A DNA stretch of 59,100 bases from Bacilli bacterium (lineage in GTDB: Bacteria; Bacillota_I; Bacilli_A; RFN20; CAG-826), in assembly GCA_024408505.1 (NCBI GenBank), contig JAKSUZ010000007.1, positions 1-59,100 of the forward strand. The letters are read 5' to 3'. This document shows, one piece after another, positions 2,806-38,454 of this stretch (its first letter is position 1; every line of letters starts with the position of its first letter). The translations under genes were made by a program, and so were the position numbers. The notes under the pieces were generated by a model. That model made no database searches. It was not told the origin of the DNA and saw nothing but the letters and a program-made list of their open reading frames with translations.

Positions 2806-4896
2806 ATGAAGAAATACATTTTAGCTTATGACACTGGTACTACTGGTGTTAAAACTTGCATTTTTTCCATTGATCGGAAGATTGAATTAGTGGCTGGAGC
2901 TTCTAGCTCTTATCCGCTTTACACCTTTGCTAATGGGGCGGCGGAACAAGAACCAGATGACTGGTGGAATGGGATGTGCATAACCACTAAGGAAGTATTA
3001 AAAAAAGCTAAAATTAAGCCAACAGAAATTTCGGGTATTTCATTTTGTTCACAAGCACAAGGTTTAGTGCTCGTTGATAAAAATGGAAAAGCGTTACGTA
3101 GAGCCATGTCCTATATGGATCAACGCGCTACGGAAGAAATTAAGAAAGGCATGTCGTATGGTTTACAAATTGCTGGTGCGAATATTTTTAAATTAATTCC
3201 AAGTTTAAGAATTACGGGTGCGGTTTCTAGTTCAGTTAAAGATCCAGTTTGGAAATATAAATGGGTTGAAGCGCATGAACCACAAATATTTAGTCGCGTT
3301 TATAAATGGTTAGATGTTAAAGATTATTTAATTATGCGTTGCACGGATGTAGCTACGATGACTATTGATAGTGCATATTCAACTTTCTTATTTGATAATC
3401 GTCCTAAGAAAATGAAGTGGAGTAAAAAGCTCTGCAAAATGCTCGGTGTTAATATGGAGCATTTACCACGGGTTATTAAATCAACTGAATGTGCAGGTCG
3501 TTTAACTAAGAAGGCGGCGAATGAATTAGGCTTAGTTCCCGGAATTCAAGTCTTTGGCGGTGGCTCTGATGCTAGCTTAATTGGGATTGGTGCTGGTTCA
3601 ACTGATGTTGGTGATACTCATATTTATTGTGGAACTTCTGGTTGGGTTAATACCGTTGTTGATCATCGTTTAGTAGACACTAAAGCTATGATTGCTGCGA
3701 TTGCAGGTGCGGATGAAACTTCACTTAATTATTTCGCCGAAATGGAAACGGCGGGTAAATGTACTGAATGGGCAAAGAATCATTTAGCGCGTGATGAAAT
3801 TATTCTTTTCTTACATGCTCATCGTGAATATAAAACATTTGAAGAAAAGCAAACCGCTTTATTTAAATATTTAAACGAAAAAGTTAAAGATGTACCACCG
3901 GGTGCAAACGGGGTTTTATTTACTCCTTGGTTACATGGTAACCGTTGTCCGTTTGAAGATTCAAAAGCGACTGGTATGTTCTTTGGTATTACCATTGAAA
4001 CCGGTAAGACTGAATTAGTAAGAGCGATGCTTGAAGGCATTTACTATCATGTTCGTTGGATGCTTGAATGCCATGAAAAGAAATTAAAGATTAAAGATAC
4101 GATTCGTTTCGTGGGTGGTGGTGCATTGTCCCCAATATCTTGTCAATTATTATCTGATATTACAGGTAAAAAGATTGAAACTATTGCCGCTCCACAAAAC
4201 GTGGGCGCGATGGGTGCAGCCGCCGTTGTCGCGGTTGGTTTAAGACTCATTCCTAACCTTAAATCGGTTAAGAAATTTGTTCCAGTTGTTCGTTCCTATA
4301 GTCCTGATTTCAAGAAACACAATTTATTTGATCCTCACTATTTAGTGTTTAAGAATTTATATCCATCAAATAAGAAAAACTTTACGGAACTTCATGATAA
4401 GAGTGCGAAGGATAAAGAAAAATCGCACGCTGAAAAAATGAGAGCGTTAAAATTTTTCCTCTTCTCGGTAAGCGCAGGCGTTATTCAATTATTGGTGACT
4501 ACCTTGTTAGGTATTCCAAATGTAATTCCAGCTTCAGCGGTTTATCTAGTAGGATTAGTTGCTTCTGTTATTTGGAACTTTACCTTTAATAGAAAGTTTA
4601 CCTTTAAGAGTGCGAGCAATGTTCCTAAGTCAATGGCGTTAGCCTTCCTCTTTTATGTATTCTTCGCTCCCGCATCTACCTTTTTGACCGCCTATCTCAC
4701 TAATGGTGATGTACTTAGCTTAATGACTATTCCTCATGTGGGAATTTTAGGTTCAATGGATGTAACAACTGCGGATATGCCACTAGCAGCCACTTTAGTG
4801 ACAACTTTGATTTGTATGGTGTTTAATTTCACCCTTGAATTCCTCTGGCAAAGATTTGTGGTCTTTAAAGATTCAATTGATACAAATAAGAAATAA
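2806..4896 (+). CDS. FGGY-family carbohydrate kinase fused to a GtrA-like membrane domain
   Basis: 696 residues, far longer than FGGY kinases (about 500). Residues 1 to about 515 carry the kinase: the DTGTTGVKT phosphate loop near the N-terminus, the GGGSDASLIGIGAG region, and FVGGGALSPISCQLLSD of the ATP-binding half, like xylulokinase or glycerol kinase. From about residue 545 the protein changes to four hydrophobic segments with the NFTFNRKFTFK motif typical of GtrA-like proteins, which act in polyprenyl-linked sugar translocation. AAGGAG precedes the ATG. As third gene of the operon it should phosphorylate the aldolase substrate. The fusion would place the kinase at the membrane; its function is inference. 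It ends 1 bp from the convergent MATE gene. Confidence 0.85.
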   Translation: MKKYILAYDTGTTGVKTCIFSIDRKIELVAGASSSYPLYTFANGAAEQEPDDWWNGMCITTKEVLKKAKIKPTEISGISFCSQAQGLVLVDKNGKALRRAMSYMDQRATEEIKKGMSYGLQIAGANIFKLIPSLRITGAVSSSVKDPVWKYKWVEAHEPQIFSRVYKWLDVKDYLIMRCTDVATMTIDSAYSTFLFDNRPKKMKWSKKLCKMLGVNMEHLPRVIKSTECAGRLTKKAANELGLVPGIQVFGGGSDASLIGIGAGSTDVGDTHIYCGTSGWVNTVVDHRLVDTKAMIAAIAGADETSLNYFAEMETAGKCTEWAKNHLARDEIILFLHAHREYKTFEEKQTALFKYLNEKVKDVPPGANGVLFTPWLHGNRCPFEDSKATGMFFGITIETGKTELVRAMLEGIYYHVRWMLECHEKKLKIKDTIRFVGGGALSPISCQLLSDITGKKIETIAAPQNVGAMGAAAVVAVGLRLIPNLKSVKKFVPVVRSYSPDFKKHNLFDPHYLVFKNLYPSNKKNFTELHDKSAKDKEKSHAEKMRALKFFLFSVSAGVIQLLVTTLLGIPNVIPASAVYLVGLVASVIWNFTFNRKFTFKSASNVPKSMALAFLFYVFFAPASTFLTAYLTNGDVLSLMTIPHVGILGSMDVTTADMPLAATLVTTLICMVFNFTLEFLWQRFVVFKDSIDTNKK

Positions 4897-4897
4897 A

Positions 4898-6796
4898 CTA
4901 TATCTTCACATATAGGTTATTTGTTTTAAGCAAATTAGAATATTGTATTTCTTTTACTGACTTATAAACAATTCGCATAGAAACATTAGCTACTGGATCA
5001 TTTTTTAACGAAAGACGTGTGGCGCGATCTTCGATGTTATATTTACTGCAGTCATCACGAATTCGTAAAATAATATCATCGTTTTTATAAACTATTCTAA
5101 TTTCAATAGTGTGTTTGCGTTTCGGTTCGGTAGGGAAACCTGAAACAATAATTGATTTCGCAAGTTCTTCGGTGCATGCAGCAATGTGATATGTTCTTCG
5201 CGAATCAATTTGGTGTTTTTTGCAAAAATCAATAATTTTTTCAGGAAGCGGGAAGACATCAGTAATTCCTCTTACAACGAAAGTTAGTTGATTATCGATA
5301 GGGCAACCAAAATCTTTTGGTAAAAAGAATAACGAACGAACGTCTATTCTAAATCTTTGCTTATGCGCGAGCGCATAGAAGAGTGCGAAAATTAGGTGAA
5401 TGAAAGTGTAACTAACAAAACCGAACGAGATTCCTGCCCACACGTCTCCATTGAAACTGGCTAAAAAGATAAAGATGGCAACCGATGCAAGAGGCAATAC
5501 TAGACTTTGCAAACAAGTAACAATATAGGCATATTTAGTTTTTCTTGTTCCTTGAAAGAAAGCTAGGAAAGAAGCGTTTAATGTTACAAACGGCGTAGCT
5601 AATGCATCGCAAATAAGAGCAATCCGCGATTGTTCAATCATAGCTTTTGCTAAATCTGGTTCTTCTTCAGTAGTTTCACCAACACCATATAACCACACTA
5701 ACGGGCCAGATAACAGAGCGTAGATAACAGAAAATATAGTTACAACAATTAATGATGATTTAATAACAAGTTTCAGTAGTTCGTTTAAGGAGTCTTCGTC
5801 TTCCTCTGCATAAAAAATACTACTAAGAGAAAGACTGGTTGCAATCAAGCCACCAGTAATACTTTCCACAAATGGGGTAATGTGACTTTGAGCGCTCAAA
5901 GCGGTAAAAAGTACACGAGGATCATATTGCATTTGATTCGTTAAAGAAGCAGCATTGCTAAATAAAATGTTAATTGTAGAAGTTCTTAGAAAGATAAACA
6001 AAACTTTTATTCCGGCAGGTAATCCGATTAGCGATACTTTACCAGCAGTGTCAAGCGAAATGCTCTTAAAAGAAAATTTTAGTGTAGATTTTTTATTAAA
6101 AAACGCAAACGAAAGAATTATTGTGCCAACCACAAATGATAATGATGTTGCGATTGCTATGCCAAATATCGCCCATTTGCCAAAATCAATATCAGTCGCG
6201 TGAGGACCATATTTAAAAAGTACGCCACTCACTACATCTCCGATTACATTGACAAATAAAACAGCAAAGATGGAAATGGTTGATATTTTTTTACCATTCA
6301 CTAAATTTGTTAGCGGCAATAAAACATTATATGCAATATAAAAAGGTACGCCAATAAAGAAACCTACGACATACCAAAAAGCATATTTAAAAGAAAAAGA
6401 ATCAGCTCCTAATAACCAAAGCATATTTCCGTTGCTACAAATTGGGATTACAATTATGGATAATATTACTCCGCTTAATGCGCTCATTGCAATCGAAGTT
6501 GAAAAAGTTTTCTTTGCACCTTTAAAATCTCCTTTTGCCAATTGTCTAGAAACATAAATCTGAGCGCCGATTTGAATGATGTTATTAATAATCGATACAA
6601 AAGTAATTAGCGGTGAAACAACGGCTAATCCTGCAGATGCAGCATCATTAACAAAACGTGAAGCGCAAATTCCATCCGTAAAATTAGTAATAGCGCCAAC
6701 GAGATTTGATAGTATTAAAACAAAAATAACGTTATAGAACAATTTTTTAACAATAGCCGAATTGTGGAATTTGTTATTTATTTGTTTTGAAGACAT
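4898..6796 (-). CDS. MATE-family transporter with C-terminal histidine-kinase-type ATPase-like domain
   Basis: Residues 1 to about 470 form a MATE (multidrug and toxin extrusion) transporter with about 12 hydrophobic segments; family members export drugs, metabolites or peptides using Na+ or H+. The last 150 residues are soluble and resemble a GHKL/HATPase fold of the anti-sigma RsbW type: AACTEELAKSI sits where the N-box would be and IRDDCSKYN where DxGxG would be. Both motifs are degenerate, so ATP binding is doubtful. Ordinary MATE proteins are about 450-490 residues. There is no ribosome site; TATAAT (807-812 region, 6807-6812) lies 10 nt upstream of the ATG. It is divergent from the repeat peptide gene. 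Confidence 0.8.
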   Translation of the reverse strand: MSSKQINNKFHNSAIVKKLFYNVIFVLILSNLVGAITNFTDGICASRFVNDAASAGLAVVSPLITFVSIINNIIQIGAQIYVSRQLAKGDFKGAKKTFSTSIAMSALSGVILSIIVIPICSNGNMLWLLGADSFSFKYAFWYVVGFFIGVPFYIAYNVLLPLTNLVNGKKISTISIFAVLFVNVIGDVVSGVLFKYGPHATDIDFGKWAIFGIAIATSLSFVVGTIILSFAFFNKKSTLKFSFKSISLDTAGKVSLIGLPAGIKVLFIFLRTSTINILFSNAASLTNQMQYDPRVLFTALSAQSHITPFVESITGGLIATSLSLSSIFYAEEDEDSLNELLKLVIKSSLIVVTIFSVIYALLSGPLVWLYGVGETTEEEPDLAKAMIEQSRIALICDALATPFVTLNASFLAFFQGTRKTKYAYIVTCLQSLVLPLASVAIFIFLASFNGDVWAGISFGFVSYTFIHLIFALFYALAHKQRFRIDVRSLFFLPKDFGCPIDNQLTFVVRGITDVFPLPEKIIDFCKKHQIDSRRTYHIAACTEELAKSIIVSGFPTEPKRKHTIEIRIVYKNDDIILRIRDDCSKYNIEDRATRLSLKNDPVANVSMRIVYKSVKEIQYSNLLKTNNLYVKI

Positions 6797-6928
6797 AGCA
6801 AAAAGTATTATAAACTTTTTTGATGATTTTTAAAATCGCAATTTTAAGGAACGTTTCTAATAATTAATGTTTAAATGATTTATTGCTAGTAAGCTACGCT
6901 TTAAGAAAAAATGTATTCAAATATAAAT

Positions 6929-6955
6929 TTGATTTATTAGGAATAATTATATAGT
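6929..6955 (+). promoter_or_regulatory. Likely promoter of the repeat-peptide gene
   Basis: TTGATT (6929-6934) and TATAGT (6950-6955), spaced 15 nt, precede the gene. The perfect Shine-Dalgarno AAGGAGG (6966-6972) sits 8 nt before the ATG at 6981, one of the strongest ribosome sites in the window. Confidence 0.45.
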
Positions 6956-6980
6956 ATTAAAGCATAAGGAGGTTCTTTAT

Positions 6981-7268
6981 ATGAAAACATTTAATAGAAC
7001 TGAATTAAAAAGATTCAACGAATCTTTTAATAATGGCACTAAAAAGCTTGCAACGGATGTGGGAAGTACTACTAAAAAATTCACTCCTAAGAGTGTTAGT
7101 AGTTATGACAAAAGAAACGCTTTCACTCCAATGAGTGTTAGTGGTTGCAGCAAAAGAGATGCTTTCACTCCAATGAGTGTCAGCAGTTACAACAAAAGAA
7201 ACGCTTTCACTCCAATGAGTGTCAGCATGTATCAAAAGAAATCATCTTTTGTTCCTAAAAACGCTTAA
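6981..7268 (+). CDS. Small tandem-repeat protein; candidate precursor peptide of a YcaO-modified product
   Basis: 95 residues. Residues 1-33 form a hydrophilic leader-like stretch rich in N, K, T. Residues 34-89 are four copies of a 14-residue unit, F-T-P-[MK]-S-V-S-x-x-x-K-[RK]-x-[AS], and residues 90-95 (FVPKNA) are a partial fifth. The units are rich in Ser and Thr, one has Cys (GCS), and each is separated by a dibasic KR or KK. There is no signal peptide or membrane segment. The gene lies 49 bp upstream of a YcaO gene on the same strand and has a perfect ribosome site. Repeat structure plus YcaO neighbour suggest a RiPP precursor with several core peptides; this is inference. It might instead be a structural repeat protein. 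Confidence 0.75.
   Translation: MKTFNRTELKRFNESFNNGTKKLATDVGSTTKKFTPKSVSSYDKRNAFTPMSVSGCSKRDAFTPMSVSSYNKRNAFTPMSVSMYQKKSSFVPKNA
7080..7265 (+). repeat. 42-bp in-frame tandem repeats coding for FTPMSVS units
   Basis: Four consecutive 42-bp units and a partial fifth. The middle copies share the block GCTTTCACTCCAATGAGTGT almost unchanged, while the codons for the three variable residues between VS and K[RK] differ (SYD, GCS, SYN, MYQ). High DNA identity suggests recent expansion or gene conversion of the array. Confidence 0.9.
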
Positions 7269-7300
7269 TTAAGTTGTTTTAAAAGCATTTGTTTTAAACA

Positions 7301-7317
7301 TAAGCGGCGAACGCTTA
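7301..7317 (+). promoter_or_regulatory. Hairpin abutting the YcaO start codon
   Basis: TAAGCG (7301-7306) and CGCTTA (7312-7317) pair around GCGAA, ending one base before the ATG at 7318. No T-tract follows, so it is not a classic terminator. It could lower transcription or translation of the enzyme relative to the repeat peptide. Confidence 0.5.
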
Positions 7318-8940
7318 ATGTTTAGGCTCGTTTTTAGTATGGTATATTATAAAGATAGAAACCCAGTTGACACTATCAACCTAATTAAAACTATTCTTAA
7401 GAAATTAGGAATTGTTATGGTCGAAAAAGAATATAATTCAGGTGTCGCTGGGGTTTTTTCTTTCCGCATAGCAATGAAAAACGCTCCTAGTATCGGGTCT
7501 AATGGTAAAGGAACATCTCGTATCTATGCCTTGGCAAGCGCTTATGCGGAATTTATTGAAAGATTAGCCAATAATATGCTTTTTGCTATCGATTTGTCGA
7601 TGGTGCATAAGGCGTACTATGATTCAATACCTGTAAAATTATCATCTTACGTTAATAGTCCTTTTCTTGGCCCAAAGAAAAATGATCATAAATTTTTACG
7701 TAATTTTAAGGATATTTATAATCATGGTTCTAATGACTGTTACGCAATTCCCTATGAGAGAATTGATAGTAAACAAAAAGAAACATTATTATTTCCCTAC
7801 CCATTTTCTACTCTTTATGGTTCAAATGGTATGGCAGCGGGAAATTCTTTTTATGAAATGAGCGTTCAAGCTATTTCTGAAATATTCGAACGTTATGCTC
7901 TCGATGAGATATTAACAAATAGAAAAAAAGCTTTACTTTATGATAATAAGAAAGTTCTTAAAATTTTTCCTAATCTTAAAACTATATTTAATAGTTTATA
8001 TAAGCGAAAATATCATATTAAAATCTATGATTGTTCAATCGGTTTAGATTTACCCGTTTTTGCGGTAATTGTTTTTGATGAAAATAAAGAAAATTATTCG
8101 GTTTCTTTTGGTGGACACCCAAATGCTGAATTTGCCATTACACGTTGCTTTACCGAAATGTTTCAGGGACTAGAGAATGGTGAACTAAAAAACAACATTC
8201 ATCAAAAAGCTAACAAAATATCTAATTTTAATTTACAGCAAATTTTACATAATGGTTATGGTGTATTTAGTCACTCTTTCTTAAATGTCAAGAAACCGTC
8301 AAAGAATTATAAGTTATTAACTAAAGAATACTCTTCTAACAAAAGTATGTTTAATTACTATTTATCTATTTGCCATAAAAACCGTTTTCCTCTTTATTAT
8401 CGTGATGCATCGTATCTTGGACTTTCAGCCGGCCATTATATCATTCCTGGTTTAAGCATTATGTATCTTCCCGATGATTTTCAATTTCGTTTTTATAAGA
8501 CGTTTGAGAAATATTATCCACTAATCGAAAATTTTATTAATTTAAAAAGAAATGATCAATTAACAATTAACGAATTCTACGAATTCTATTATCGTTCTTC
8601 TCAAGCAGAAGAAGATTCCATATATTCTTCTACTTATGTTGATGATTATCAGGCTAATTTTGCTCTTCTTTTTGCTTTAACTAATGCCATATGCGGTGAT
8701 TATAATCGATCTCATGACTTTCTTTCTTTAGCTTATCAATGTTTACAAATTTCTAAAAAAGATATTAAATCCATTAAGCAAATAGAAAAAATTATTGATA
8801 CCCACAATCAAAATAAAATTAGACAGGCTTTTATCAAAGGGCAATTTAAAAGAGTTAAATTAACTGATAACATTGCAAATATTTATTTTCCTAAATTGTT
8901 AAAAGCGCAAAAAAATTACTATTTAAAAAATAAGCGCTAG
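7318..8940 (+). CDS. YcaO-domain ATP-dependent peptide-modifying enzyme, E. coli YcaO type
   Basis: A 540-residue YcaO protein of the E. coli YcaO architecture. Residues 61-83 (SNGKGTSR, AYAEFIERL) and 170-193 (SNGMAAGNS, ISEIFERY) carry the ATP/Mg-binding glutamates; SFGGHPNAEFAITRCFTEM and the SAGHYIIPGLS block follow. The last 110 residues are helical and TPR-like, as in E. coli YcaO (586 residues). YcaO enzymes use ATP to activate a peptide backbone amide, giving azolines, thioamides or amidines; the E. coli-type branch is linked to S12 methylthiolation. Here the adjacent repeat peptide is the obvious candidate substrate. No dehydrogenase, TfuA or E1-like partner is nearby. There is no ribosome site for 7318; ATG 7339 (MVYYKDRNP) is an equally plausible start. 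Confidence 0.88.
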   Translation: MFRLVFSMVYYKDRNPVDTINLIKTILKKLGIVMVEKEYNSGVAGVFSFRIAMKNAPSIGSNGKGTSRIYALASAYAEFIERLANNMLFAIDLSMVHKAYYDSIPVKLSSYVNSPFLGPKKNDHKFLRNFKDIYNHGSNDCYAIPYERIDSKQKETLLFPYPFSTLYGSNGMAAGNSFYEMSVQAISEIFERYALDEILTNRKKALLYDNKKVLKIFPNLKTIFNSLYKRKYHIKIYDCSIGLDLPVFAVIVFDENKENYSVSFGGHPNAEFAITRCFTEMFQGLENGELKNNIHQKANKISNFNLQQILHNGYGVFSHSFLNVKKPSKNYKLLTKEYSSNKSMFNYYLSICHKNRFPLYYRDASYLGLSAGHYIIPGLSIMYLPDDFQFRFYKTFEKYYPLIENFINLKRNDQLTINEFYEFYYRSSQAEEDSIYSSTYVDDYQANFALLFALTNAICGDYNRSHDFLSLAYQCLQISKKDIKSIKQIEKIIDTHNQNKIRQAFIKGQFKRVKLTDNIANIYFPKLLKAQKNYYLKNKR

Positions 8941-8950
8941 CATTCATTAG

Positions 8951-8978
8951 TTGCGAATTTTAAATTTTCTTTTATACT
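8951..8978 (+). promoter_or_regulatory. Promoter of tRNA-Val
   Basis: TTGCGA (8951-8956) and TATACT (8973-8978) are 16 nt apart and end 15 nt before the tRNA. Confidence 0.6.
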
Positions 8979-8993
8979 ATTCATTAGCGCTCT

Positions 8994-9069
8994 GGGTGTT
9001 TAGCTCAGCTGGGAGAGCATCTGTTTGACGTACAGAAGGTCGGGGGTTCGATCCCCTCAGCACCCACCA
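8994..9069 (+). tRNA. tRNA-Val (anticodon GAC)
   Basis: A 76-nt cloverleaf with acceptor stem GGGTGTT/AGCACCC, D-arm GCTC/GAGC, anticodon stem TCTGT/ACAGA around TTGACGT (anticodon GAC), T-arm GGGGG-TTCGATC-CCCTC, discriminator A and an encoded CCA. Confidence 0.95.
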
Positions 9070-32691: not shown

Positions 32692-32782
32692 GGAGTAGTA
32701 CCCAAGAGGCTGAAGGGGAAGGATTGCTAATCCTTTAGATCGGGCAACCGGTGCAAGGGTTCAAATCCCTTCTACTCCGCCA
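32692..32782 (+). tRNA. tRNA-Ser (anticodon GCT)
   Basis: A 91-nt class II tRNA: acceptor GGAGTAG/CTACTCC, anticodon stem AAGGA/TCCTT around TTGCTAA (anticodon GCT), long variable arm, T-loop TTCAAAT, discriminator G and encoded CCA. Its 3' side borders the defence island, a common site for island insertion, though no integrase is seen. Confidence 0.95.
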
Positions 32783-33221: not shown

Positions 33222-33407
33222 ATGAAAAATGTAAATTCAAGCAAAATTGAGATTGAACTAATTTCAAATATTGCAAATGAATCTAAAGTAAATAAGTCAA
33301 TTATTATTTTAGATGATAAAGGCAATAATAGAAATTTTGATTTCAATGTAAGTGTACCAAAAAAAGTTCGAAAAGTATTCGAGGTTAAAAATGATTACAA
33401 CTTCTAA
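33222..33407 (+). CDS. Small protein upstream of the methyltransferase, unknown function
   Basis: 61 residues, with a clear AGGAGGG ribosome site 9 nt before the ATG. It is hydrophilic, with a lysine-rich middle, [18 protein letters not shown] at the end, and no recognisable helix-turn-helix. Its 3' end overlaps the start of the methyltransferase by 17 bases, so the two are coupled. Many R-M operons begin with a short controller gene, but this one does not look like a typical C protein. Function unassigned. Confidence 0.6.
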
Positions 33408-34425
33408 TAATTTTTATAGTAAAATTATTGAGATGAAATTAATAAGTCTCTTTAGTGGTTGCGGCGGATTAGATTTAGGCTTTGAAAAAGCCGGTTTTTC
33501 TATTCCTATCGCCAATGAATTTGATAAAGAAATATGGGATACATACATTGCAAATCATCCAAAAACAAAACTACTTAAGGGTGATATTAGAAAAATTTCC
33601 GAAAACGATTTCCCTTCGAATGTTGATGGAATAATCGGTGGACCTCCCTGCCAGTCATGGTCCGAAGCAGGAAATTTAAAAGGTATCGAGGATGAAAGAG
33701 GTCAACTTTTTTATGAATATATTAGAATTCTTAGAAAAGTTAAACCAAAGTTTTTCCTTGCTGAGAATGTAAGTGGAATGATGGCAGATCGGCATTCAGA
33801 AGCTGTTAAAAATATACTCAAATTATTTGAAGAATCTGGTTACGATGTATCTTTAACTGAGGTAAACGCTAAAGATTATGGTGTAGCACAAGAAAGAAAA
33901 AGAATTTTTTATATCGGTTTTAGAAAAGATTTAAATATTAAATTTAAATTTCCGCTTGGTTCTACATCGGATGATGAAGATAAAATTACTCTTAAAGATG
34001 TTATATGGGATTTGCAAAAAACCGCTGTTCCAGCTTTAAACAAAAATCATAAAAACCCCAAGGCGATTAATAACAATGAATATTTTGTGGGAGACTATTC
34101 AACCATATTCATGAGTAGAAATAGAGTGAAGTCGTGGGATGAACAAGCTTTCACCGTGCAAGCTTCTGGCAGACAATGTCAACTTCACCCATCCGCTCCC
34201 AAAATGGAAAAGGTAAGTACTAATTTATATCGTTTTGTTAAAAATAAAGAAAATAAATACAGAAGGATGACTGTTAGAGAAGTGGCAAGAATTCAAGGCT
34301 TTGATGATAGTTTTAAATTCATTTATGAAAATGTAAATACTGGATATAAAATGATTGGCAATGCTGTCCCAGTAAATTTAGCGTACGAAGTGGCAATTTC
34401 TATTAAGAAGGTATTAAAAAAATGA
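33391..34425 (+). CDS. DNA (cytosine-5) methyltransferase, M.HaeIII-like (GGCC)
   Basis: 344 residues from the ATG at 33391, chosen for its GAGG ribosome site; the frame also opens earlier at 33352 and an internal ATG begins MKLISLFSG. Motif I is [12 protein letters not shown], motif [19 protein letters not shown] with catalytic Cys87, motif VI AENVSG, motif [16 protein letters not shown], and target domain to motif X include [16 protein letters not shown] and [16 protein letters not shown]. These blocks closely match M.HaeIII, which methylates GGCC. It overlaps the restriction enzyme gene by four bases. Confidence 0.94.
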
Positions 34426-35375
34426 GTAATCAAAGTAACAATCACGGAAGAGCCTTTGAGTATATTTGCTTAATAACTTTAGAAAAAGAAATATCTAAGT
34501 TTAGAAAGGCAAGCATTGAGATAAATTCAAGTTATGATGCATCACTCAATGCATGGAATTCTATTGATGCTAAATTGCAGAGAACTTTAGAAAAAAGTTC
34601 TTTAGCTGCTGTTAATAAAATTTTTGAACTAGAACCGCTAATTAAGGAAGATGGAAATGATGAATTGATTCTAAAAATCCAACTAGATGCCGAGGGAGAA
34701 AACGGCGATGTTAGGGATATTCTTCTTATCAGAAGAAGCATACACTGGGAAATCGGTTTAAGTGTCAAACACAACCATTTTGCTGTTAAACATAGCAGAA
34801 TAAGTAAAGGATTAGATTTTGGCTTAAAGTGGTTTGGTATAAAATGCTCCAAACAATATTGGGAAAATGTTAATGAAGTATTTTCTTATCTTGAAAAATG
34901 TAAATCAAAAAATATGAAATGGAGCGAAATCACCGACAAAGATACAAAGGTGTATGTTCCGCTTTTAGAATCTTTTATTAATGAAATCAATAGTTCTTAT
35001 AAAAAGGATTCTTTGTTGCCGCAAAAAATGGTTGAATACTTACTAGGTAAGTATGATTTTTATAAATTAATTAGTATTGATCATAAATCCGTTACTCAAA
35101 TACAAGGATTTAATCTTCATGGTCAATTAAACAAAAAATCAAGCTCAATAAATCCAACTATAAATGTTCCTATCGTTTCTCTACCAACAAGAATTGTTAA
35201 ACTTGAATTTAAACCAAATAGTACTAATACCGTCGAATTATATATGAATAATGGATGGCAGTTCAGTTTTAGAATTCATAACGCATCAACGAAAGTTGAG
35301 ACTAGTCTAAAATTTGATGTACAAATAGTTGGGATGCCTGCTAATATTCTTATAATTGATTGTCCGTGGAGATAA
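34422..35375 (+). CDS. HaeIII-family type II restriction endonuclease
   Basis: 317 residues, HaeIII-like length. The start [24 protein letters not shown], the block [14 protein letters not shown], the catalytic region [35 protein letters not shown] (D-x-n-E-x-K type, with Glu before GLS-x-K), and the C-terminal [30 protein letters not shown] match the HaeIII family, which cuts GG^CC. ATGA overlap with the methyltransferase fits a type II R-M operon. The catalytic set appears intact. Confidence 0.9.
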
Positions 35376-35392
35376 TATTTAAGGGGTATTTT

Positions 35393-35866
35393 ATGAAAAG
35401 CGAAGAAGAAAGATTTGCAGCCGGTTATAAATATTTCGGAAAGATATATGAAAAAAACAAAAAACAATATAAAGAAGAATACTATTTAAATACTGGCATT
35501 TGGTGGTTCGTGAAAAATTCTACTGTTATCGTTTTTACATCCAATATATCTTCAACAAAGTATTTGTATCAAGTGTTTAAGAAAGATGCTAAGGATGTTT
35601 GCATTTATTATTTTAAGACAGATGTAGATATTAATTTACTGAATGAATATTATAAAAATTCAAATGTACATTTTAAGAAAATATCGAAAAATCCTTATAT
35701 TGAATTCAAACATAATACTATTGTCTTTTGTGGGAATGATACTATCGTTTTTGATAGGAATGAACTTGGCGACAATGGTTATTTCACCAAAACGAGAGAA
35801 GTTTATAGGGATAAATCTATTGAACACTATAATTTATATTATTCTCGAGCGAAAAAAATAATCTAA
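35393..35866 (+). CDS. Unknown protein in the restriction-modification island
   Basis: 157 residues from the ATG at 35393, preceded by AAGGGG; an earlier in-frame ATG (35360) lies inside the endonuclease gene and is less likely. The first 35 residues are charged with FAAGYKYFGKIYEKNKKQYK, followed by alternating short hydrophobic strands (VIVFTSNIS, VCIYYFKT, TIVFCGNDTIVF) suggesting an alpha/beta fold. No family recognised and no catalytic motif. Its position 17 bp after the endonuclease and 15 bp before the protease suggests an operon in defence. Confidence 0.6.
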   Translation: MKSEEERFAAGYKYFGKIYEKNKKQYKEEYYLNTGIWWFVKNSTVIVFTSNISSTKYLYQVFKKDAKDVCIYYFKTDVDINLLNEYYKNSNVHFKKISKNPYIEFKHNTIVFCGNDTIVFDRNELGDNGYFTKTREVYRDKSIEHYNLYYSRAKKII

Positions 35867-35881
35867 TTTTGAAATGTAAAA

Positions 35882-36718
35882 ATGAAAATTGATGAGCAGC
35901 TTATACATACAACAATTAGAATAGTTTCCAAATCCATAAATAATCAATTTAGTACGGGAACTGGTTTTTTCTTTAGATTTATTTTTGAAAATAATGCGAA
36001 TGTGCCAACTATAGTTACTAATAAACATGTTTTAAAAGATTCGGCAACAATTAATTTAAGATTTAGTCTAGATAACAATGGGTCTTTTGTGCCAGGTAAA
36101 TTTTTTGAATTTAATTATGAAACAAAAAACTTATTGATAATAGATCACCCAGATGATTCTGTCGATTTATGTTTAATTTGCATTGCGCCGCTTTTGAATA
36201 ATATTGAACAAAAATTGCATATTGTTTATTTGACTAAAGATAACCTTATAACAAAAGAGTATATAAATGAAAACATTTCTAATATAGAGGAAATTACATT
36301 TATCGGTTATCCAGATGCTATCATAGATGATTATAATAATCTTCCTGTTGTAAGGAGGGGTATTACTGCTACTTCTATTAAATATGACTTTAACAATAGA
36401 AAAGAATTTTTAATAGATTCGGCAATTTATGGCGGGTCAAGTGGTTCTCCTGTTTTCATCTTTAATCAAGGCTCTTATTCAATAGGAAATAGGTTGTTTG
36501 CTGGTAGTCGTCTACTTTTAGTGGGAATAGTTTTTGCGGTTGCACAACATAGAGTTAATGGCGAACTAAAAATTATTGAAATTCCTACATCATCGAAACC
36601 TATATCTGAGACTTTAATTCCTAACAATATTGGTTTTGTTATAAAGGCAGAAAGATTATTAGATTTTTTTGACATTTTAAAAGAAAAAATAAAATCGGAA
36701 CAAACAAAGAATCTTTAG
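35882..36718 (+). CDS. Trypsin-like serine protease in a defence island
   Basis: 278 residues with a chymotrypsin-like fold: GTGFFFRF opens the barrel, His49 lies in VTNKHVLKD, Asp95 in DSVDLCLI and Ser187 in GGSSGSPVF, giving a complete catalytic triad. There is no signal peptide or membrane segment, so it is probably cytosolic. No Shine-Dalgarno precedes the ATG. Cytosolic trypsin-like domains occur as effectors or cofactors in several prokaryotic defence systems; the role here is inference. Confidence 0.82.
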   Translation: MKIDEQLIHTTIRIVSKSINNQFSTGTGFFFRFIFENNANVPTIVTNKHVLKDSATINLRFSLDNNGSFVPGKFFEFNYETKNLLIIDHPDDSVDLCLICIAPLLNNIEQKLHIVYLTKDNLITKEYINENISNIEEITFIGYPDAIIDDYNNLPVVRRGITATSIKYDFNNRKEFLIDSAIYGGSSGSPVFIFNQGSYSIGNRLFAGSRLLLVGIVFAVAQHRVNGELKIIEIPTSSKPISETLIPNNIGFVIKAERLLDFFDILKEKIKSEQTKNL

Positions 36719-36868
36719 ATTTTGTTATCTCACGAATCCATGCCTCCCATTATTTTTGCCTAAATAAGGTTTTCTCACCTATGGTTTTTGGGGGTGTTGC
36801 CTAATTTATGCAGTACACTCCCAGTAAATAAATTACGATTATAAAGTAATCGTTATATATAAAAAGAT

Positions 36869-36912
36869 AAAAAAGACACAAGAAAATCAAAAATATTTTT
36901 GTGTCTTTTTTT
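36869..36912 (+). terminator. Long-stem terminator before the AbiE genes
   Basis: AAAAAAGACACAA (36869-36881) and TTGTGTCTTTTTT (36899-36911) form a 13-bp stem with a 17-nt loop and T-tract. The A- and T-rich ends allow it to act in both directions. Confidence 0.8.
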
Positions 36913-36957
36913 GATTTATTGTAAAAAAATGTTGTTTTACTCCAGAAACTGCTATAT

Positions 36958-36963
36958 TATAAT
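36958..36963 (+). promoter_or_regulatory. -10 box of the AbiE operon
   Basis: TATAAT (36958-36963) with a weak -35 (TTTTAC, 36935-36940, 17 nt upstream), followed by AAAGGAGG and the ATG at 36984. Confidence 0.5.
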
Positions 36964-36983
36964 AATAGTTAAAGGAGGCAAAT

Positions 36984-37592
36984 ATGGTATTTTCGAATAA
37001 TGATTTTCGTATTTATTTTCGCAATATATCAAATATCAATCAAAAGATAAGGAACGAAGTAAATAAGAATAGATTTGTTAGAATAGTTAGAGGTATTTAC
37101 TCTAGCGATCCAAATAACGATTATTTGTATATTGCTAATAGAATTAATAATAATTCCTATATATCTTTTGATTATGCTCTTTATTATTATGGGCTAATAC
37201 CTGAACGGGTAAACGCTATTACATCTGCTACAAGAAATACCAATAAGAAGCGTGCGTTTGTTGGTGGCATGCGTAAGTATATTTATCGTGATGTTAATTC
37301 ACGCGCTTACTCAGAAGATATAAATTGCATTGTTGATGTCAATAATAATAACATTAGGATAGCATCGAGAGAAAAGGCTATTTGTGATAAGTTATCGACC
37401 ATACCTCATATAAGAACTATGAAGGGTATTAAGAACACACTTTTTTATGATTTAAGAATAGACGAGGAAGTTTTATTTAATTTAAATATTGATAGAATGA
37501 TTAGTTTATCTAAGATGTATAATAAGCCAACTCTAAATATTTTTGCTAAGTTTTTAGAAAAGAGAAGATTATATGAATCAGGAAGTCGTTGA
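36984..37592 (+). CDS. abiEi: AbiEi-family antitoxin of a type IV toxin-antitoxin system
   Basis: 202 residues. An N-terminal helical part that could be winged-helix precedes RIVRGIYSSDP, the typical R-G-x-Y-x-x start of the conserved domain, then NNNSYISFDYALYYYGLIPE and IASREKAICDKLS. AbiEi represses its operon and neutralises AbiEii without direct binding. Strong AAAGGAGG ribosome site. It overlaps abiEii by 20 bases, the usual arrangement. Confidence 0.83.
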   Translation: MVFSNNDFRIYFRNISNINQKIRNEVNKNRFVRIVRGIYSSDPNNDYLYIANRINNNSYISFDYALYYYGLIPERVNAITSATRNTNKKRAFVGGMRKYIYRDVNSRAYSEDINCIVDVNNNNIRIASREKAICDKLSTIPHIRTMKGIKNTLFYDLRIDEEVLFNLNIDRMISLSKMYNKPTLNIFAKFLEKRRLYESGSR

Positions 37593-38454
37593 AGAAGTAA
37601 ATAAGCTACATCCTAAGAATAGCGATGATTATGGAAATGCTATAAAAGAAATATTGCAAAACATTGTTTTGATAGGACTTTCAAAAACAGATTTTTTCAA
37701 AAAAACTTGTTTTTATGGCGGCACTTGTTTACGAATTTTTTATAATCTAGATCGATTTTCTGAGGATTTAGATTTCACGTTAAATGCTGTAGATAGTGAA
37801 TTTGGTTTTAAACCATTTTTTAATGAAATTATTGCCACTTGTAAATATTATGGATTTGATGTTGAAATAAAAGAAAAGCCAAAAGACATTGAACATAAGA
37901 ATATTGTAACTGCCTATTTAAATACAAACAAAAGAGATGCTTTTATTAATTGCAACGCCCCTAGACTATATATTGATCATATTCGACCAGAAGAAAAAAT
38001 AAAAATTAAATTAGAAGCAGATGTCGAACCACCGCTCGGATACAAAATCAAAGAAAGAATATTAAGTTTTGGTGGCAATCATACTATTATTACCGCAGAC
38101 GAACAGTCTTTGTTAGCAGGGAAAATTCATGCCATTTTATATAGAAATTTTCCTAATCGAGTAAAAGGTAGAGATTACTATGACTTTATTTTTTTAGTTA
38201 ATATGAATGTTTCAGTTAATCTTACTTATTTAGCAAACAAAATAGCAAAATCTAATGATAAGTTTAATAAAAAAACATTCGATATAATTGAACTAAAACG
38301 AATGCTCAAAAAACGAATAGATTCTATAAATTTAAATCAAGCGAATGATGATTTAGACCCTTTAATATCAAATCCTTCTAATAATCCATTTTTAACAAGA
38401 GATGTACTTTATAAATGCATAAACAATCTAAAGATTGGCCAGAATAATTATTGA
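37573..38454 (+). CDS. abiEii: AbiEii-family nucleotidyltransferase toxin
   Basis: 293 residues. The DNA polymerase-beta-like nucleotidyltransferase motif is FYGGTCLRIFYNLDRFSEDLDFTLN (G-G-T-x-L and S-E-D-L-D-F), and the later KGRDYYDFIFLV motif is typical of AbiEii. The toxin uses NTPs to arrest growth during phage infection. It is paired with the AbiEi-like gene upstream and appears intact. Confidence 0.92.
   Translation: MNQEVVEEVNKLHPKNSDDYGNAIKEILQNIVLIGLSKTDFFKKTCFYGGTCLRIFYNLDRFSEDLDFTLNAVDSEFGFKPFFNEIIATCKYYGFDVEIKEKPKDIEHKNIVTAYLNTNKRDAFINCNAPRLYIDHIRPEEKIKIKLEADVEPPLGYKIKERILSFGGNHTIITADEQSLLAGKIHAILYRNFPNRVKGRDYYDFIFLVNMNVSVNLTYLANKIAKSNDKFNKKTFDIIELKRMLKKRIDSINLNQANDDLDPLISNPSNNPFLTRDVLYKCINNLKIGQNNY

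Follow-up and report, generated by a model that had tools for sequence, protein, structure and literature searches.

E. coli YcaO (EcYcaO) was recently shown to be a backbone thioamidase of ribosomal protein uL16 that acts without TfuA; in co-expression, an E202A variant served for comparison with the active enzyme (PMC13063428). EcYcaO needs folded uL16, and GluC peptides of the protein stayed unmodified; McrA is a further whole protein modified by a YcaO (PMC13063428). The uL16-modifying YcaOs are acidic and conserved, while non-acidic members of the EcYcaO group have been reported in RiPP contexts (PMC13063428). Repeated cores within one precursor are known from the thiovarsolins, in which the repeat precursor VarA is accompanied by the YcaO VarY and the TfuA protein VarT, and TfuA is required (PMC6511847). 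Standalone-YcaO RiPPs have also been described, e.g., streptamidine, and YcaOs form azolines or amidines in many RiPPs (PMC8442711).

Here, we describe a repeat peptide gene followed by a YcaO gene of the E. coli type in a 59,100-nucleotide stretch of DNA from a Bacilli bacterium, called the window below. The features of the two genes are as follows:

6966..6972, + strand: AAGGAGG, read from the sequence as the ribosome-binding site for the peptide, with 8 nt separating it from the ATG
6981..7268, + strand: repeat peptide gene, 95 aa, from the open reading frame and its translation
7080..7222, + strand: tandem array of 42-nt, FTP(M/K)SVS units with KR/KK spacers, Tandem Repeats Finder (TRF) score 209
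7293..7326, + strand: weak intergenic hairpin over ATG 7318, fold -12.9 kcal/mol, z -1.9
7318..8940, + strand: YcaO of the E. coli type, 540 aa (533 aa from ATG 7339), full-length PF02624 match, E 4e-37

The array has a period of 42 nt, 3.4 copies and 84% matches, and is the strongest in the window, where Tandem Repeats Finder gives the second-best array a score of 68. It encodes four units of 14 residues each (TTKKFTPKSVSSYD, KRNAFTPMSVSGCS, KRDAFTPMSVSSYN and KRNAFTPMSVSMYQ), followed by a degenerate tail, KKSSFVPKNA. The core stretches read FTPKSVSSYD, FTPMSVSGCS, FTPMSVSSYN and FTPMSVSMYQ, and the units are joined by KR(N/D)A, with KK ahead of the first unit and behind the last. Thus, the four 14-residue repeats announced by a sequence-only reading of this DNA are confirmed, as is its consensus ribosome site, yet the FTPMSVS motif that it gave to each repeat is exact in three of the four units only, with K replacing M in the first. 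Every unit has Thr and several Ser, and Cys occurs a single time, in agreement with the Thr, Ser and one Cys of that reading. The N-terminal part, MKTFNRTELKRFNESFNNGTKKLATDVGS, is a possible leader; the translation contains no GG site, and the 95-aa peptide gave no Pfam or NCBIfam match above cut-off. Synonymous and nonsynonymous changes from unit to unit come from four copies, too few to show selection.

The YcaO gene follows codirectionally, and the + strand of the intergenic gap shows no terminator-like site. The full-length YcaO and the gap of 49 bp given earlier both stand if translation starts at ATG 7318, but the true start may be ATG 7339 (533 aa), which widens the gap to 70 bp, because ATG 7318 lies inside the weak hairpin (10 of 200 shuffles fold equally well) and residues 1-9 of the structural model are disordered. 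By sequence (E 4e-27) and by fold, the closest solved structures are those of E. coli YcaO (4Q84-4Q86), in line with the earlier assignment to the E. coli type; overall identity to E. coli YcaO is about 23%. The AlphaFold model (mean pLDDT 81, pTM 0.83) has 4Q86 as its nearest fold, with a TM-score of about 0.6, i.e., a clear match whose domains are not identically arranged in the model, and it shows a helical domain after residue 387, where EcYcaO carries a TPR-type domain. All eleven residues compared (E. coli K9, S71, E75, E78, N187, E191, E199, E202, R203, R286 and E290) are identical, and in structure 4Q85 these positions line the ATP/Mg site; E. coli E202 corresponds to Glu191 of the window enzyme. 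The enzyme is basic, with a pI of 9.36, as against 4.4 for the acidic, uL16-modifying EcYcaO, and it scores 182 bits with the NF040716 model, far below the cut-off of 700. The SagD model (TIGR03604) gives 44 bits versus a cut-off of 219, and the PxPxP C-terminus, which has a role in azoline formation, is absent. Neither the insert described below nor the 30 other window ORFs scanned encode TfuA, ThiF/E1-like or nitroreductase-type domains, which agrees with the earlier remark that no dehydrogenase, TfuA or E1-like protein is found here.

Both genes sit in a stretch that is missing from sister genomes:

6789..8950, + strand: accessory insert of ~2.16 kb between the MATE gene and tRNA-Val, defined by the homology break against sister genome G001
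8994..9069, + strand: tRNA-Val bordering the insert (ARAGORN), in the same place in the sister genomes

Homology to G001, the nearest of the sister genomes, ends at window position 6788 and restarts at 8951, and 58 bp lie between these points in G001. The insert carries the peptide and YcaO genes only, with no protease, exporter or immunity gene. Around it, the order aminotransferase-aldolase-kinase-MATE-tRNA-Val-tRNA-Gly-permease-PAP2 is kept in four same-genus genomes (G001-G004) within the stretches compared, that of G002 spanning kinase to PAP2 without MATE. Neither gene is found at this locus in the four sister genomes, which are 66-90% complete, and the empty site is directly visible in G001, G003 and G004. 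Of the 279 genomes of the order, this one included, 3 have YcaO matches, and no credible peptide homologue was found in the 278 others, nor any in plasmids, phages or the PDB, so that the peptide is known in a single copy. The best other peptide matches in the order (E 0.001-0.002) were rejected for internal stops or because they lie inside long frames; a 22-residue match in a viral contig (L080) was taken as chance, and no relatives of the YcaO appeared among viral contigs. The rarity of the pair in the order favours gain of the insert over its loss, and the best reading is that peptide and YcaO form one accessory module. Two patterns named beforehand as speaking against the pairing, repeat peptides widespread without YcaO and YcaO orthologues kept by relatives without the peptide, were not encountered, as the order yielded no credible homologue and the four sister genomes lack both genes.

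Elsewhere in the window, a small defence island (33352-38451) lies right behind tRNA-Ser (32692-32782). Its genes encode a C5 cytosine methylase and a HaeIII-type endonuclease, a protein with a trypsin-like domain (35882-36715) and a nucleotidyltransferase of the AbiEii type (37573-38451).

A second YcaO, 58% identical to that of the window and likewise basic (pI 9.04), is encoded on another contig of the same genome (C10), near genes that read by eye as ribosomal proteins L11, L1, L10 and L7/L12. Two small GG peptide genes lie directly upstream of it, with another such pair close by, and the neighbours include a C39-peptidase ABC transporter, a second ABC transporter and a short HlyD-like protein, for which NHLP bacteriocin export models are the best matches (815, 624 and 28 bits, all under the curated cut-offs). 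Because of these GG peptides and the NHLP-like peptidase/exporter, the C10 neighbourhood places both YcaOs of the genome in a peptide-modification setting. The N-terminal likeness of the window peptide to the C10 leaders is only suggestive: 2.8% of shuffles align equally well, and a MAFFT alignment did not place it.

The C10 peptides have a peculiarity of their own. One of them, 66 aa long and with a GG leader of the bacteriocin type (L004:2954-3154, on C10), matches the SusC/RagA receptor signature TIGR04057 (E 1.6e-13, 50.2 bits versus a cut-off of 46.2), so that its core resembles the plug signature found in nutrient receptors of Bacteroidota. Small peptides of this type were found in this genome only, among 274 searched; matches in two other genomes (G174 and G075) fall within much longer open frames (about 880-1125 aa) that have the look of complete receptors, perhaps on contaminant contigs. 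A literature search found no paper on SusC/RagA-signature mimicry by such peptides. The peptide types are duplicated as a pair (L004:2743-2949 with 8109-8315, and 2954-3154 with 8320-8511) with nearly identical upstream DNA, and the other three peptides end NGV(I/V)IVT.KK- or DGIAIIT-like, resembling a degenerate TIGR04057-type signature.

Further YcaOs of the branch came from searches of Bacilli-type and Clostridia-type genomes. A scan of genome contigs with a two-row alignment gave only two distant relatives, and scans at class and phylum level, centred on the window, picked up many close relatives. Three of the further YcaOs, from genomes G326, G284 and G808, form one supported clade (99/98), which is nearest to the window YcaO among outside rows by path length, the deeper branching being unresolved. 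Each is convergent with an adjoining Met-rich tandem-repeat (MxxM) peptide gene:

L013:5917-6468, convergent with YcaO: Met-rich repeat peptide of G326
L014:10814-11071, convergent with YcaO: Met-rich repeat peptide of G284
L039 about 7053-7366, convergent with YcaO: Met-rich repeat peptide of G808

These peptides, of which QCMTPKQPVQSMDCMQPM is an example, start nearly at once in repeats, without a leader or dibasic spacers; ribosome sites precede those of G326 and G808, and a common YDEE end is found in G326 and G284. The G326 peptide lies near a gene that reads by eye like a CotA-type laccase, and no paper was found in the literature that joins YcaO and a methionine-rich peptide with copper. 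Across the 345 kb of DNA examined, four arrays reach a score of 100 or more, and each of them lies no further than 1 kb from a YcaO; zones of this kind cover 17% of the sequence. As the window was picked for its repeat and the other three arrays come from one clade, the coincidence lends support but falls short of a clean test.

The remaining relatives have more varied neighbours. Weakly Nif11-like precursors and an exporter lie alongside the YcaO of G921, and a small peptide, PqqD and a radical-SAM-like gene alongside that of G915. In a Clostridiales genome, two small peptides rich in Cys and related to each other, both with the ending PNYGACGTRSI(Y/H)R (L006:7233-7436 and 7473-7706), lie upstream of an ABC transporter and a same-branch YcaO, which is likely a separate RiPP locus. 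No obvious peptide is seen near the YcaOs of G1026, G807 (L042), G972 and G1052; that of G1026 (L041) follows genes reading like a molybdopterin-type oxidoreductase. Because relatives adjoin such diverse peptide genes, the branch is not tied to a housekeeping substrate in these bacteria. Hence, the statement in the sequence-only reading that the E. coli-type branch is not normally paired with a dedicated precursor was too strong, given both the Clostridia relatives beside Nif11-like, Cys-rich or PqqD/radical-SAM peptide genes and the non-acidic members in RiPP contexts (PMC13063428).

Taken as sequence evidence, the two-gene insert missing from four sisters, the context of the paralogue and the repeat peptides beside the nearest outside YcaOs bear out the proposed pairing, and peptide and YcaO are very probably a dedicated enzyme-substrate pair. 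The fuller reading, that a four-core substrate peptide and its modifying YcaO make up one accessory module, is probable. In its favour, the strongest array of the window lies directly upstream of the YcaO on the same strand, with no terminator-like site between; against it count the lack of a protease, exporter or immunity gene in the module and the branch relatives without an obvious peptide. In the proposed mechanism, the YcaO would use ATP to activate a backbone amide oxygen in the FTP(M/K)SVS units, a sulfur source would replace the activated oxygen to give a backbone thioamide (+16 Da per modified unit), and the repeats would let one precursor carry several modified units. That the product is a thioamide rather than an azoline or amidine is an evenly balanced judgement by analogy, thioamidation being favoured since the window YcaO is of the E. 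coli type and EcYcaO, its nearest relative of known function, thioamidates without TfuA. Substrate recognition must differ here, because EcYcaO reads folded uL16, not a linear peptide. A trypsin-like protease from outside the module could cut at KR/KK and free the units, and their release as short peptides is a serious possibility just short of even; trypsin is reported to take part in maturing ruminococcin C and some gut lanthipeptides. Export via the C10 transporter in trans would be speculation because the window peptide has no GG site.

The chemistry could also be different, with the YcaO acting as a cyclodehydratase on the Ser/Thr/Cys residues of each unit and forming azolines, as happens in linear azoline peptides, or an amidine. 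The Thr and several Ser of each unit and the Cys of one would suit this reaction, and azoline or amidine formation is what YcaOs do in many RiPPs (PMC8442711); the missing E1-like/ThiF-like partner and dehydrogenase in the window ORFs scanned, the missing PxPxP C-terminus and the low SagD score make the reading unlikely, though these counterpoints bear on azolines and are compatible with amidine formation. The repeat protein may also be modified and left uncut, the whole protein being the product (e.g., surface or metal-binding) and KR/KK mere linkers. An insert without protease or exporter fits such a product, as do the Met-repeat peptides without leader or dibasic spacers, one of them near a CotA-like laccase, and the precedent of McrA and uL16, modified as whole proteins (PMC13063428). 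The regular KR/KK at each unit boundary fits processing instead, and the peptides of the paralogue have GG-type leaders plus an exporter, so we regard an uncut product as rather improbable. Far less credible is a uL16-like role, with a ribosomal protein as the target of the window YcaO and no functional tie to the repeat peptide next to it. The E. coli type of the enzyme, by sequence and fold, would allow it, but its pI is 9.36 and not about 4.4, it reaches 182 of 700 bits with NF040716, YcaO is rare in the order and uL16 universal, peptide and YcaO make up one insert, and each of the two paralogues lies downstream of small peptide genes.

Returning to the dedicated pair, Met is common to the uL16 site, three of the four peptide units and the Met-repeat peptides, and this shared Met is a lead only as to the modification. 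It could be speculated, with the odds clearly against it, that Bacillota E. coli-type YcaOs include an unrecognised class of repeat-protein modifiers, each with a tandem-repeat partner (FTPMSVS here; MxxM in G326, G284 and G808) whose units are thioamidated on the backbone, perhaps on or beside Met as happens in uL16. If so, ribosome thioamidation and peptide natural products would be linked through one enzyme branch. The pair also points to an unmined group of repeat peptides adjoining this YcaO branch. With just two genes and a substrate of short repeats, the module lends itself to reconstitution, which would tell whether the TfuA-free branch makes peptide products and which sequence its YcaOs read.

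Among solved relatives, E. coli YcaO (uL16 Met82 thioamidase; 4Q84-4Q86; NF040716) is closest by sequence and fold; the window enzyme shares its active-site residues, the helical C-terminal domain and the lack of a nearby TfuA, whereas it is basic, accessory, placed beside a repeat peptide and below the NF040716 cut-off, and so has neither the model score nor the acidic pI of the uL16-modifying group. The thiovarsolin system likewise has repeated cores in one precursor beside a YcaO and no dedicated protease in the cluster, but belongs to Actinobacteria, has APR/GPR cores, requires TfuA and includes several further genes; the window pair has the repeating cores of YcaO-TfuA RiPPs (4 x 14 residues) and no TfuA in the insert or the 30 window ORFs. 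Streptamidine-type systems share a YcaO unfused to an E1-like domain and a precursor of its own, and differ in precursor family, single core, amidine product and other tailoring genes. Linear azoline (TOMM/SagD) systems differ in their E1-like partner, which the ORFs scanned lack, and in the TIGR03604 score (44 of 219 bits here). The Met-repeat pairs also combine a same-branch YcaO with an adjoining tandem-repeat peptide, but in convergent orientation, with MxxM-type repeats, no dibasic spacers and a YcaO pI of about 6. The C10 NHLP-like locus shares small peptide genes directly upstream of a YcaO 58% identical, but its peptides are non-repetitive and carry GG, and its C39 ABC exporter, second ABC transporter and short HlyD-like protein have no counterpart in the insert. 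Intact ATP-binding residues and a linked short precursor gene are what the window pair shares with YcaO-dependent RiPPs in general. The candidate multi-core RiPP made by a lone YcaO is supported in part, and multi-core YcaO RiPPs as such were already described in the thiovarsolins, with TfuA. A two-gene module of a TfuA-free E. coli-type YcaO and a repeat substrate was not found in the literature searched, mostly outside subscription journals.
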